A DNA stretch of 64,000 nucleotides from Ruminococcus sp. Lineage in GTDB: Bacteria; Bacillota; Clostridia; Oscillospirales; Ruminococcaceae. Shown here in pieces: positions 2,814 through 8,663 of this stretch. The first letter of the stretch is position 1. The number at the start of each line of letters is the position of its first letter. The position numbers and the translations under genes are program-made. Below the pieces are notes generated by a model. The model worked only from the letters and a program-made list of their open reading frames with translations, did not search any database and was not told the DNA's origin. The stretch lies in assembly GCA_020861185.1 (NCBI GenBank), contig JAJBSV010000002.1:62001-126000 (forward strand), read 5' to 3'.

Positions 2814-4394
2814 TTATTCGCCGCTGGCGCCATAGTTCGAAAGGACTCGGGCGGAGGGGTCGTTGACGTTACAGCCTTCCCACTCCTTGTTGGGCATCCA
2901 GAAGTCTACGACCATTTCAGCGTTGCCGGGGTAGTACTTCTCGAAGATTTCACGGTAGAGAAGCGACTCTTTCGTGAACGGCTTTGCAAACGTGTATTTG
3001 GCGCTGAGAGCCTCAAACTCTTCATCCGAATATGTCACCTCGGCATACTCTTTCAGATAATCGACCATCGAGTGACCGACAGCGTCGGAGAAGGCGGCTT
3101 TTTCACGGTAGAGAATGTCGTGCGGGAGATAATCGCCCTCGAAAGCGTGGCGAAGAAGATACTTGCCCTTGCCGTAGGTGTTGAGCTTCATTTCCGGGTC
3201 AACCGCCATGACATACTTGACGAAGTCGAGGTCTCCAAACGGGACCCGTGCCTCAAGAGAGTTTACGGAAATGCAACGGTCGGCACGAAGAACATCATAC
3301 ATATGGAGCTCGTGGACACGCTTCTCGGCTTCCTTCTGGAAAGCTTCGGCGTCGGGGGCGAAATCGGTGTACTTGTAGCCGAAGAGCTCGTCCGAAATCT
3401 CGCCGGTGAGAAGAACGCGGATGTCGGTGTTCTCGTGAATCCACTTGCAGAGGAGATACATGCCCATGCTCGCGCGGATTGTTGTTATGTCGTAGGTGCC
3501 GAGCATCTCAATAACGGTCTCAAGAGAGCTCAAGACTATCTCTTTATTGATTATTACTTCCGTGTGATCGCTGTGGATATAATCGGCGACCTGCTTCGCA
3601 TACTTGAGGTCGATTGCGTCCTCGCTCATGCCGATGGCGAAGGTTCTGATCGGCTTGTCTGAGCACTGCTGTGCCACTGCACAGACCAAGGACGAGTCAA
3701 GCCCTCCCGACAGGAGGAAGCCCACCTTCGCATCTGCTACAAGCCTCTTCTTGATCCCCTTTGTTAATTTGTCATGGATGTTTTGGCAGACCTCGTCGAG
3801 GTCAGCCTTTATAACACCCTCAGGCTTGGATATGTCGCAGTAGCTTATGAACTCCCCCGCCTTATAGTAGCACCCCGGCGGGAAGGGCATGACTCTTTCG
3901 TATATGGGCACGAGGTTTTTGGGCTCGCTGGCGAAAACTATTTTATCATCACGGTCATAGCCGTAATAAAGCGGACGGATACCGATTGGATCTCTGGCGG
4001 CAATGAACTCTTTTGTCCTGCCGTCAAATATAATCATTGCGAATTCGGCATCGAGCATCGAAAACATGTCAGTTCCGTATTCAAAATATAACGGAAGAAT
4101 TATCTCGCAGTCTGAGCCGCTCTTGAATTTGTAGCCTTTTTTGATGAGCTTATCTTTGAGCTTCTCAAAGCCGTAGAGCTCGCCGTTGCAGACAACGCTC
4201 GAACCATCAAGCTCAAACGGTTGCATGCCCTCGGGAGTCAAGCCCATAATGGCGAGGCGATGGAAGCCGAGGAGCCCCGAGCCTGTATCAATAATTCTTG
4301 AATCATCGGGTCCACGGGAAATTGTCCTGTCGAACCCCTTTTTAAACTCCGAAAAAGAGACACCGCTTTTGCAGTAACCCATAATCGAACACAT
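2814..4394 (-). CDS. asnB: asparagine synthase (glutamine-hydrolysing)
   Basis: A 526-residue class II amidotransferase that makes asparagine from aspartate, ATP and glutamine. The start at 4394 gives Met-Cys-Ser-Ile, placing the obligatory N-terminal nucleophile Cys at position 2; the 14-codon upstream extension would bury it, and AGGAGAG lies 8 bases before 4394. The glutaminase domain occupies roughly residues 1-200 (SRGPDDS, CNGELYG motifs) and the ATP-pyrophosphatase synthetase domain follows with the PP-loop LLSGGLDSSLVCA. It sits downstream of the PII-fused ammonium transporter and type III glutamine synthetase on the same strand. It has its own promoter and a long T-box leader, so expression should follow uncharged tRNA-Asn. 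Confidence 0.93.
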   Translation of the reverse strand: MCSIMGYCKSGVSFSEFKKGFDRTISRGPDDSRIIDTGSGLLGFHRLAIMGLTPEGMQPFELDGSSVVCNGELYGFEKLKDKLIKKGYKFKSGSDCEIILPLYFEYGTDMFSMLDAEFAMIIFDGRTKEFIAARDPIGIRPLYYGYDRDDKIVFASEPKNLVPIYERVMPFPPGCYYKAGEFISYCDISKPEGVIKADLDEVCQNIHDKLTKGIKKRLVADAKVGFLLSGGLDSSLVCAVAQQCSDKPIRTFAIGMSEDAIDLKYAKQVADYIHSDHTEVIINKEIVLSSLETVIEMLGTYDITTIRASMGMYLLCKWIHENTDIRVLLTGEISDELFGYKYTDFAPDAEAFQKEAEKRVHELHMYDVLRADRCISVNSLEARVPFGDLDFVKYVMAVDPEMKLNTYGKGKYLLRHAFEGDYLPHDILYREKAAFSDAVGHSMVDYLKEYAEVTYSDEEFEALSAKYTFAKPFTKESLLYREIFEKYYPGNAEMVVDFWMPNKEWEGCNVNDPSARVLSNYGASGE

Positions 4395-4708
4395 AAGTAC
4401 ATCTCTCCTATACTGTTTCAGCATTCGATAGGGCAAGTGCTGTTACTCGCGGTGCCACCTATCTTTTCAGTCTACAAACCTTGGTCAAGGCTTGTATCTT
4501 CCTCCGGGCTTCAGCCAAAGCCCTTCCCTGTAACGCAGGGACTACGGCGCACCTACTGGGATTATAAATCCGTTCAGATTGCAACTTACTCGGGGTTACC
4601 ACTGCGGCGCATATCTACGCACTCTCAGCATAGAGATTTTTCGAAACCTCGTGCGACTCTCTTTGAAACTGTGTGCCGCAGGGCATATCCGAGTTCAAAC
4701 GCTTTTAG
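4395..4708 (-). promoter_or_regulatory. Asn-type T-box leader of asnB, apparently translational
   Basis: Read on the minus strand, this 5' UTR has the T-box core GGTGGCACCGCG (TGGCACCGCG at 4448-4457), the hallmark that pairs with the 3' end of uncharged tRNA. Stem I can be drawn: ACTCGG pairs with CCGAGT, then TGCGGC with GCCGCA, and the internal loop between them carries AAC, an Asn codon, at 4595-4597. The antiterminator helix GATAGG/CCTATC encloses the T-box bulge. Instead of a terminator with a U-tract, the same CCTAT can pair with ATAGG of the asnB Shine-Dalgarno (about 4401-4406). Charged tRNA would therefore hide the SD. T-box identity is firm; specifier and translational mode are inferred. 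Confidence 0.85.
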
Positions 4709-4714
4709 GATTTT

Positions 4715-4723
4715 ATTATATCA
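4715..4723 (-). promoter_or_regulatory. extended -10 promoter for the asnB T-box transcript
   Basis: TG-A-TATAAT on the minus strand (TATAAT at 4715-4720, TG at 4722-4723). No good -35 at the usual distance, consistent with an extended -10 promoter. It lies just after the stop of the ammonium transporter, with no terminator visible between them. Confidence 0.6.
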
Positions 4724-4742
4724 GAGTAAATTGCGATTGTTT

Positions 4743-6476
4743 TTACTCAACGTCCTGAAGGGCATCGAAGCCTTCCTCGCCGGTTCTGACCTTGACGACA
4801 TTCTCGACGTCATAGACGAAGATCTTGCCGTCGCCGATATGACCGGTGTAAAGAACCTTCTTTGCGGTCTCGATGACGTGACGAACAGGAATCTTGGATA
4901 CTACGATATCAACCTGAACCTTCGGGAGGAGGTTTGTCTCAACGGCAACGCCTCTGTAATACTCAGGCTTGCCACCCTGCTGACCACAGCCTAAGACGTG
5001 GGTGACAGTCATGCCGGTGATTCCGAGGCTCATCATAGCGTGCTTGAGCTCATCAAACTTCGACTCCTTGCAGACAATCTCGACCTTAGTGAACTTAGGC
5101 TGCTCGCCGTCTTCCGCAAATGTTGGAACCTTCTTGACGGGAATAGCCTCGGCAACCGGTACATCAGATGTTACAGCTACAATTCCGTCGGCAGGAGCGT
5201 ATGAGGAGTACTTGCTGACAGCAGGAGCAAAGTCGGGATATGCGCTGGGAAGACCGTGCTCGCTGATATCGAGACCGGCGGCTTCGTCCTCCGCAGAAGC
5301 TCTTAAGCCGTGGAACTTTTTAATAAGTGCAAAAGTTATTACCATCATAACCACAGCGTAAATTGCTACTGTAACAACGCCGAGAAGCTGGAGCCCGAAC
5401 TGCTTGAGCGAACCGGTGTAGAAGAGACCCGAAAGTCCCGCAGGAGCGTCAGGGTTCGCCAGAAGTCCTACAGCCAATGTTCCCCATACGCCGTTTGCCA
5501 TATGTACGCCTACGGCGCCGACGGGATCGTCGATGTGAAGCTTGAGGTCGAGGAGCTCGACTACGAATACAACGAGGAAGCCGGAAACTAAGCCAACTAC
5601 TACTGCTCCGAATGCATCCAAAGCGTCACATCCTGCCGTGATACCTACGAGTCCTGCCAAAGAGGCATTGAGACACATCGAGACATCAGGCTTTCCGTTC
5701 TTGACCCATGTGAATATCATGGTCGTAACAGTCGCCACTGAGGGTGCAATGGTGGTGGTGAGGAAGATGGAGGCAAGTTCGGATGCAGAAGTTGCAGCCG
5801 CTCCGTTGAATCCATACCAACCGAGCCAGAGAATGAACACGCCCAGCGCGCCGAGGGTTATTGAGTGTCCGGGAATGGCGTTTACCTTGGTAACCTTGCC
5901 GTTCTCGTCCTTGACATACTTGCCGATACGGGGACCGAGGAAGATTGCGCCAACTAGTGCGGCAAGACCGCCGACCATATGAATAGCGCAAGAACCTGCA
6001 TAATCGTGGAAGCCAAGCTGTGAAAGCCAGCCGCCGCCCCAAATCCAGTGTGCCTCAATCGGGTAAACGAGTAAGGAAATTACGCCCGAATAGATGCAGT
6101 ATGCCGAGAACTTGGTTCTCTCCGCCATGGCACCGGAAACGATGGTTGCGGTTGTGGCACAGAAAACGAGGTTGAATACGAATGTGGATGCTCCGGTGAA
6201 GCTTCCGTCAGCAGGCGAAGCGATAAATTCTTTAAAGTTCGTCCACAAGTCCATGTTCGGAAGTCCGATAAGTCCGAAGAGTGTGTCCTCGCCCATCATG
6301 AGCGTGTAGCCCAGAAGCGAGAATACCACGGTGCCGATGCAGAAGTCCATCAGGTTCTTCATGATGATGTTGCCGGCGTTCTTTGCCCTCGTAAAGCCGG
6401 TTTCTACCATCGCGAAGCCCGCCTGCATCCAGAATACCAAAGCAGCTCCGATCAAAAACCAAAATTCTACTGTCAT
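4743..6476 (-). CDS. amt: ammonium transporter fused to a C-terminal PII signalling domain
   Basis: A 577-residue Amt/Rh family channel with a nitrogen-regulatory PII (GlnB/GlnK) domain in the same chain. About 400 residues form the usual 11-membrane-helix Amt, with WMQAGFAMVETG in helix 1 and the two pore-histidine regions (GHSITLGALGVFILW and GAVGVHMANGVWGT). A linker of about 60 residues leads to a PII fold (from about residue 460) with a T-loop (GCGQQGGKPEYYRG), LLPKVQVDIVV, and the TGHIGDGKIFV and RTGE motifs that bind ATP/2-oxoglutarate in PII proteins. Free GlnK normally plugs Amt; here the regulator is tethered. No separate glnK is present in this window. It lies 90 bases downstream of glnN and probably shares its transcript. 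Confidence 0.93.
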   Translation of the reverse strand: MTVEFWFLIGAALVFWMQAGFAMVETGFTRAKNAGNIIMKNLMDFCIGTVVFSLLGYTLMMGEDTLFGLIGLPNMDLWTNFKEFIASPADGSFTGASTFVFNLVFCATTATIVSGAMAERTKFSAYCIYSGVISLLVYPIEAHWIWGGGWLSQLGFHDYAGSCAIHMVGGLAALVGAIFLGPRIGKYVKDENGKVTKVNAIPGHSITLGALGVFILWLGWYGFNGAAATSASELASIFLTTTIAPSVATVTTMIFTWVKNGKPDVSMCLNASLAGLVGITAGCDALDAFGAVVVGLVSGFLVVFVVELLDLKLHIDDPVGAVGVHMANGVWGTLAVGLLANPDAPAGLSGLFYTGSLKQFGLQLLGVVTVAIYAVVMMVITFALIKKFHGLRASAEDEAAGLDISEHGLPSAYPDFAPAVSKYSSYAPADGIVAVTSDVPVAEAIPVKKVPTFAEDGEQPKFTKVEIVCKESKFDELKHAMMSLGITGMTVTHVLGCGQQGGKPEYYRGVAVETNLLPKVQVDIVVSKIPVRHVIETAKKVLYTGHIGDGKIFVYDVENVVKVRTGEEGFDALQDVE

Positions 6477-6566: not shown

Positions 6567-8663
6567 TTATCTCACCCCGAACAGAAGATCTCCGTAGGTC
6601 GGGAATGGCCAATAGCTCTTGGCGGTTACGGTTTCCGCCTCGTCACAAGGTACTCTCAAAGCATCCATCTTCGGGATTACAGAATCCTTGATGCACATTG
6701 CCGCCTCGGTGACGTCGTCTAACTTCTTGTACTCAGCAACTGCCTCTTCGAGTGCATCCGCCGCCGCATCAATCTTATCTTCGAGATCTGCGAGCTTCGA
6801 GATAAGCTTTGTCTCGTATCCGCAAGCTGCATCGGGAGCGGCTGTCTTCTTAGCGTTGAGTGCCTTGGCAAGGTCTGCCTCGTATGCGCTTACTGCGGGC
6901 ATAATCTCTTTACGAGCCATGTTGAGCATGGTCTCGGCTTCGATATGTACGGTCTTGTGGTAGTTTTCAAGAAGAATCTCATAACGGGACTCGAGCTCAG
7001 GTCTCGAATATACCTTATGACGTGTGAGCATATCCACATTCTTCTCGTCGAGGAGCTTAGGCATTGCATCGGGAGTTGTCTTGAGGTTCGAGAGTCCTCT
7101 TACCTCGGTAGCTTCCTGGATCCAAGCGTCATCATAGCCATTGCCATTGAAGATGATTCTCTTGTGGTCCTTGATGGTCTTCTTAATCATGTCGTGAAGA
7201 GTGGTTTCGAAGTCATCAACGCCCTCAAGTCTGTCAGCGTAAATCTTAAGAGATTCAGCAACTGCGGAGTTAAGCATGATATTAGCGCAAGCGATACTGT
7301 TGGAAGAGCCGAGCATTCTGAACTCGAACTTATTGCCGGTGAATGCGAACGGCGAGGTTCTATTACGGTCGGTGGTGTCACGGAAGAACTTAGGAAGTAC
7401 ATGTACACCAAGCTTCATGACGGTCTTCTCTGTTCCGTTATAAGGAGTATCGTTCTCGATAGCGTCAAGGACTGCGGTGAGCTCGTCGCCCAAGAACATC
7501 GAGATGACTGCCGGAGGAGCCTCGTTGGCACCGAGTCTGTGGTCATTGCCAGCGGTTGCTATGGAGAGTCTCAGGAGATCCTGATAATCATCGACTGCCT
7601 TGATTACAGCGCAGAGGAAGAGGAGGAACTGAGCATTCTCGTAAGGAGTTTCGCCGGGAGTGAGAAGGTTTACGCCGGTGTCGGTTGCAAGCGACCAGTT
7701 ATTGTGCTTGCCGGAGCCGTTGACGCCTGCGAAGGGCTTCTCATGAAGCAAGCAGACGAGTCCGTGCTTTGCGGCAACCTTCTGCATGACTTCCATTGTC
7801 AACTGGTTGTGGTCGGTTGCGATATTTGTTGTAGAGTAAACAGGTGCGAGTTCATGCTGAGCGGGTGCAACCTCATTATGTTCAGTCTTTGCAAGGATTC
7901 CGAGCTTCCAGAGCTCCTCGTTCAGGTCTTCCATATAAGCGGCAACTCTTGGCTTGATAACTCCGAAGTAGTGGTCGTCGAGCTCCTGACCCTTGGGTGC
8001 CGGTGCACCGAAGAGGGTTCTGCCGGTGAAGATGAGGTCCTTTCGCTTGTCATACATTTCCTTGTCGACAAGGAAGTATTCCTGCTCGGGACCGACGGAA
8101 GTCTTTACGCACTTTACATCTTCATTGCCGAAGAGCTTGAGGATTCTCAGAGCCTGCTTGTTGAGAGCCTGCATAGAGCGGAGAAGAGGGGTTTTCTTGT
8201 CGAGTGCTTCGCCGCCGTAGGAGCAGAATGCAGTCGGAATGCAGAGCGTCTTGCCCTTGATGAAAGCGTATGAAGTAGGATCCCAAGCGGTATAGCCTCT
8301 TGCCTCGAATGTGGCTCTCAAACCGCCGGACGGGAAGGAAGAAGCATCAGGTTCGCCCTTGATGAGCTCCTTGCCGGAGAACTCCATTAAAACTCCTCCG
8401 TCGGGTGCAGGAGAAATGAATGAGTCGTGCTTTTCGGCGGTGATGCCGGTCAGCGGCTGGAACCAGTGGGTGTAGTGGGTTGCACCGTTCTCGACTGCCC
8501 AGTCCTTCATTGCCTGCGCTACGGCATCGGCGACCTCAATGTCAAGTCTTGCATTCTCGACGATGGTCTTGTTCAAGGAATTGTAGACCTTTGACGAGAG
8601 TCTTGCCTTCATCTCGCGGTCATCAAATACCATACATCCAAAATACTCGGGTATCTTTTTCAT
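6567..8663 (-). CDS. glnN: glutamine synthetase type III
   Basis: A 698-residue GSIII that makes glutamine from glutamate, ammonia and ATP; length and overall layout match the type III family (about 700 residues, versus about 450 for type I). Marks include an N-terminal [33 protein letters not shown] (metal-binding Glu), [28 protein letters not shown] and [17 protein letters not shown]. The C-terminal third (after about residue 560) is the helical GSIII-specific tail. The start ATG has AAAGGAGCG upstream. A strong promoter lies upstream, but a hairpin with a U7 tract stands between promoter and gene, so expression is probably controlled by transcript read-through. The Amt-PII fusion follows. 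Confidence 0.95.

Follow-up and report, generated by a model that had tools for sequence, protein, structure and literature searches.

According to a review (PMC7583486), translational T-box riboswitches occur mostly in Actinobacteria, work by controlling access to the Shine-Dalgarno (SD) sequence and mostly carry a short Stem I. The 2005 description was of SD-sequestering hairpins before ileS (PMC1262725), and TBDB gathered its translational T-boxes by searching Actinobacteria. Here we describe a leader upstream of asnB in Ruminococcus sp. (contig JAJBSV010000002.1), within a stretch of 64,000 nucleotides that is referred to as the window.

The asnB leader resembles the transcriptional T-boxes of Firmicutes (RF00230, long Stem I) in its long Stem I motifs, specifier, Stem II, UGGN bulge and helices A1 and A2. 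It differs from them in having no terminator, in a predicted off-state partner that is coding sequence, and in an Rfam score below the gathering cut-off. With the translational T-boxes of Actinobacteria (ileS; PMC1262725, PMC7583486) it shares an antisequestor in place of the antiterminator, the absence of a terminator and predicted control at translation initiation. However, the actinobacterial members use an SD-sequestering hairpin and mostly a short Stem I, whereas the asnB leader has a long Stem I, is specific for Asn, occurs in a gut-type Clostridium relative and has its predicted competing strand in the open reading frame (ORF). A short Stem I without the elbow-binding motif, which is a usual though not universal actinobacterial trait, was not found in the asnB leader. 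The E. coli thiC riboswitch (PMC5234074) is similar in that its regulatory folding involves the translation initiation region; its ligand and aptamer are different, and in asnB a segment of the ORF would capture the ligand-binding bulge itself. The asnB leader is thus filed as a T-box riboswitch outside both the terminator class and the SD-sequestering class. A search of the literature for asnB T-boxes, or for T-boxes whose platform lies in a coding region, returned no matching report, several key T-box papers being outside its coverage, and the coding-region off partner is provisionally regarded as a new T-box layout.

Results

Identity and anatomy of the asnB leader

The asnB coding sequence (asparagine synthetase, MCSIMGYC...) occupies positions 2814..4394 of the minus strand, on which all the leader features also lie. 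Its ATG at 4394 is the true start shared with relatives, while the listed ORF carries an extension upstream of it. The SD sequence AGGAG (4405..4409) is located 10 nt before the ATG.

We observed that 4426-4707 matched the RF00230 model end to end (model positions 1-219; 25.9 bits, E 6.3e-4). This is far under the curated gathering score of 93, so that a default Rfam scan misses the leader, and all 20 related loci that were scanned also scored under this cut-off. From the match and from an alignment of 49 non-redundant asnB leaders of related genomes, the leader RNA (4426..4707) could be divided into Stem I, Stem II, IIA/B, a variable Stem III region and the antisequestor. The first-pass annotation of this DNA had pointed to a clear T-box core and to a specifier-like AAC (Asn) in Stem I, and both were borne out. 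The core UGGCACCGCG lies at 4457-4448, and the AAC at 4595..4597 is conserved in the 49 leaders, mostly in the canonical context GAAUAACAC. The RF00230 search that it had proposed as a check gave the full-length match, but not a score near the gathering threshold.

Stem I is long and carries the AGAGAG and GGUGAGAG motifs, and across the 49 leaders both the Stem I and the Stem II motifs are canonical. Helix A1 of the antisequestor is formed by GAUAGG (4458..4463) and CCUAUC (4427..4432), with compensatory changes in relatives. Helix A2 is formed by GCGAG (4446..4450) and CUUGC (4433..4437), with 99% of cells paired in 27 leaders. The bulge UGGCACC (4451..4457) is predicted to bind the GCCA end of uncharged tRNA-Asn. 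A tRNA-Asn(GUU) is encoded in the same genome, and its 3' end, G-CCA with discriminator base G, matches the UGGC of the bulge. Judged from its sequence, the leader is a T-box for tRNA-Asn, since it combines the AAC specifier, the match of UGGC to tRNA-Asn, the compensatory changes in A1 and a long canonical Stem I. In five members (L118, L119, L120, L122, L124) UGGU replaces UGGC; with U in place of the final C, this bulge would meet the G-CCA of tRNA-Asn only via a G-U wobble.

A TATAAT at 4715..4720, which is the same in near relatives, is the likely -10 element of the leader promoter; no sigma-70 pair with a good -35 was reported for it. Just before it, an inverted repeat, GAGTAAA-11-TTTACTC (4724-4748, minus strand), overlaps the end of the upstream gene. 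The repeat is absent from L114 and L009, and TATAAT is kept in both. The upstream gene (4743-6476, minus strand) encodes, as named from its translation, an Amt-like ammonium transporter fused to a C-terminal PII-like domain, and beyond it lies a glutamine-synthetase-like gene (6567-8663, minus strand; also named from its translation). From their translations, these two genes upstream of asnB look like a nitrogen-assimilation cluster. The same kind of Amt-PII fusion gene directly precedes many asnB relatives that have no T-box. Convergent with asnB are two tandem paralogous ORFs on the plus strand (1228-1935 and 1916-2767) with a YPTGCE motif and signal-anchor-like N termini, possibly C39-like peptidases.

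Absence of a terminator

The first-pass annotation had also noted that this T-box has no terminator U-tract. In agreement with this, no terminator hairpin or U-tract was found in the 63 nt that separate the T-box core from the asnB ATG, while the five other T-boxes read in the same genome all end in classical terminators with U-tracts. These five precede cysE-, leuA-, valS-, thrS- and trpE-like genes (named from translations). In the related asnB leaders the spacer 3' of the last conserved segment, UGCUG, is A/U-rich, mostly with no U-tract. As a tRNA-Asn T-box without a terminator is best read as translational, the asnB T-box likely controls translation.

The SD-hiding proposal

The same annotation had explained translational control by direct hiding of the SD. 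The sequence relations behind the proposal are present: CCTAT (4432-4428) is complementary to ATAGG of the SD (4411-4407), and the sequence around the SD mimics that before the T-box (CTGAAA...ATAGG). In this proposal CCUAU of the antisequestor 3' strand would toggle between GAUAGG and the SD AUAGG. The window does have this complementarity, as do L010, L011, L012 and L114, and in those species it could add to repression. When we examined the alignment, however, pairing of CCUAU with the SD over at least 5 nt was seen in 4/49 leaders only (L010, L011, L012 and L114, all close kin of the window) and was absent from the other 45, including L009, whose AsnB is 98% identical. Forcing CCUAU/AUAGG in the window leader costs 8.4 kcal/mol relative to its best fold, and the SD is mostly unpaired in the predicted off fold (P about 0.84), contrary to this model. 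SD sequestration by CCUAU is thereby ruled out as a conserved mechanism, and as the explanation of the switch we consider the toggle very unlikely. Nor did we find a hairpin of the actinobacterial type in which the SD is sequestered by off-state pairing, given the 4/49 leaders and an SD access that is nearly equal across the compared states. Thus the translational part of the earlier proposal is likely to stand; CCUAU/AUAGG as its specific mechanism is not supported.

Predicted pairing of the T-box strand with the asnB coding sequence

In unconstrained folding the T-box strand was seen to quit the antisequestor and to pair with the beginning of asnB. Its sequence, GGUGGCACCGC, can pair with asnB codons 10-13 (+29..+39), and in the 13 leaders folded in full a single register was found. 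At these 13 loci (full leader plus 60 nt of ORF), T-box nucleotides -2..+8 pair with ORF +39..+29 at a mean probability of 0.81-1.0; the best fold of the window's own group gives T-box bases -2..0 other partners. The window helix is formed by GGCACCGC (4456-4449) and GCGGUGUC (4366-4359), and AGG/UCU together with successive A-U pairs make it longer. GCGGUGUC is the core of a segment within asnB (4349..4366, +29..+46) that we call the anti-T-box, the predicted off-state partner of the T-box strand.

In the same off fold the other antisequestor strand and the segment that follows it (GCCC-U-AUCGAAUGC) lie on the start-codon region. For the window, the best fold places GCA-CUU-GCCCUAUCGAAUGC (4440-4421) on +3..+24 of asnB (4371..4392), with weaker statistics.

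The clearest compensatory case is L124, with UGGUACC opposite GCGGUAC at a shifted register. In L010, L041, L059, L118 and L122, additional inserts able to form hairpins stretch the spacer from UGCUG to the SD to 28-69 nt, as against 6-19 nt, and the T-box/ORF complementarity is mostly kept in them.

Distribution of the asnB-type T-box

A covariance model of the 3' domain was used as the search model, with 44 bits or more taken as a strong match. There were 28 strong matches in 394 genomes of the order, a few more in other orders of the class and one outside the class. The strong asnB-type matches (at least 44 bits) are separated by a score gap from ordinary T-boxes (at most 37 bits), and asnB lies downstream of most of them; L096 and L116 have asnB-type T-box cores with no asnB start directly after. 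Roughly a third of 80 AsnB relatives carry the T-box leader, and its presence or absence required 22 parsimony changes on the AsnB tree.

The complementarity is conserved and selected

We estimated the strength of the T-box/ORF duplex against synonymous-codon shuffles in which the protein is kept. The observed energy was -18.8 kcal/mol as compared to -13.8 kcal/mol in the shuffles (Wilcoxon p 3e-12, ignoring relatedness), and 47% of the T-box asnB genes were individually at 0.05 or better. When T-box asnB genes were set against 53 asnB genes without a T-box, the energies were -18.3 and -11.1 kcal/mol, respectively (p 1.5e-10, again ignoring relatedness). The best T-box complement of the whole ORF (about 250 windows in each gene) falls at this very site in 32/49 genes, and the same scan on other, ordinary T-boxes gave 0/45. 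Among 7 well-supported independent pairs of the AsnB tree, the complementarity went with the T-box in 5.1 cases on average and against it in 0.2 (median p 0.06, the pairs being few).

About 7 of the 49 members lack strong complementarity (e.g. L016, L063, L119 and L185). Column shuffles gave 76.1% paired for the T-box/ORF helix versus 75.0%, a measure in which covariation cannot show because the T-box side is nearly invariant. The four comparisons above point the same way, and by computation the complementarity between the T-box and the ORF is conserved and selected.

The two strongest duplexes among the asnB genes without a T-box belong to L044 and L066, which resemble decayed T-box leaders. 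About 100 nt upstream of asnB in these two, the UGGCACC core is gone or damaged and part of the tail is left. They look as if the T-box was lost recently, with an ORF still strongly complementary to the consensus T-box.

The second half of the off fold, in which the leader 3' strand lies on the start codon, is less certain. Its pairing energy was -17.1 kcal/mol versus -15.6 kcal/mol in synonymous shuffles (p 2e-4). Covariation was seen between the base that follows CCUAU and the third position of codon 3 (Ser), the two being Watson-Crick in 24/48 against 14.2 in shuffles (p 0.001); the former base is also in A1, and relatedness is ignored in the count.

A possible transcriptional role of the T-box/ORF helix

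The same helix could act on transcription instead, either by forming an unusual terminator of long range early in the ORF or through Rho on untranslated mRNA. UCUCUUUUU comes after the ORF arm in the window, and the terminator scan placed one weak hairpin there; however, 0.6 such matches are expected by chance. Other members carry CCUAUAAUU, CCUUUGAC or CCUAUUC in place of the U-run, residues that can pair with the A1 strand, and Rho could be a secondary consequence of blocked translation. We consider a transcriptional mode of action highly improbable as the explanation, though a Rho-dependent or early-ORF termination component may contribute.

Predicted effect on translation

In folding calculations that leave out the tertiary contacts of Stem I and the tRNA, the unconstrained (off) ensemble was favoured by about 10 kcal/mol over the antisequestor without tRNA. 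Opening the region -15..+18 costs 15.0 kcal/mol in the off ensemble and 10.0 kcal/mol in the antisequestor state. The latter is close to the 9.3 kcal/mol needed to open the start site in asnB genes without a T-box, and asnB in the antisequestor state thus resembles an asnB under normal translation. The mean access of the AUG or of the SD taken alone showed little change between the states.

According to the model that we propose, uncharged tRNA-Asn would read AAC in Stem I with its anticodon, and its GCCA end would bind UGGC. The bound tRNA would stabilize the antisequestor (A1, GAUAGG/CCUAUC; A2, GCGAG/CUUGC) and keep the gene start accessible. If tRNA-Asn is absent or charged, asnB codons 10-16 would capture the T-box strand, and the second antisequestor strand would then fold on the start-codon region, giving a long hairpin that closes over the SD and AUG. 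Binding of the 30S subunit would thereby become costlier and asnB translation would be blocked. As the pairing begins at +29, beyond the usual 30S footprint, it is the closed loop, together with the start-codon pairing, that would have to produce the block.

The CAGCA/UGCUG complementarity

The A2 loop contains CAGCA (4438..4442; S2 strand), nearly invariant, and its partner UGCUG (4419..4423) lies 3-6 nt after A1; the complementarity is conserved in the leaders. A pseudoknot or alternative hairpin formed by these strands (S2) might displace A1 and block ribosome access a few nucleotides upstream of the SD. In 27 leaders, 99% of S2 cells are paired. The only changes are G-U-preserving ones in L022 and L120, a reduction to a four-pair core in a few others, and GCACA/UGUGU in the divergent L128. 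On geometric grounds the linker of 3-6 nt seems insufficient for S2 and A1 to form at the same time, and UGCUG is only 6-19 nt from the SD in most leaders. But the near-invariance of S2 leaves minimal covariation, and its conservation could be due in part to the invariant start of asnB, to which portions of both S2 strands are complementary as well. In several members UGCUG lies 28-69 nt from the SD, and the S2 state leaves SD access almost unaltered. An S2 switch of this kind is unlikely; S2 may be an intermediate or auxiliary off structure.

Two other roles were rejected for S2: hiding the SD in general, as a conserved mechanism, with a mean difference in SD access of only 0.06, and serving as an intrinsic terminator, the U-tract being missing in most members.

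Discussion

The anatomy of the T-box, the absence of a terminator and the conserved T-box/ORF complementarity are computational observations. We infer from them that the T-box/ORF pairing would be a functional off state acting on translation initiation, with tRNA-Asn as the probable in vivo ligand. On balance we favour, with reasonable though not high confidence, the model in which a tRNA-Asn T-box controls asnB translation and has its off-state partner within the coding sequence of asnB. The asnB codons at +29..+39 appear to be under selection at the RNA level.

If this is true, translational T-boxes extend beyond the catalogue of Actinobacteria to Clostridium relatives with a long Stem I, and their expression platform works by masking the tRNA-binding bulge with codons of the regulated gene. 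The findings also suggest that T-box searches give an incomplete picture if they are confined to upstream regions or demand a terminator, and that the curated Rfam cut-off misses the asnB T-box family. For the clostridial family, we think it rather probable that the off strand is protein-coding and that the first codons of asnB compete with the tRNA for the bulge, so that the riboswitch would constrain codons 10-14 of the enzyme, and perhaps its residues.
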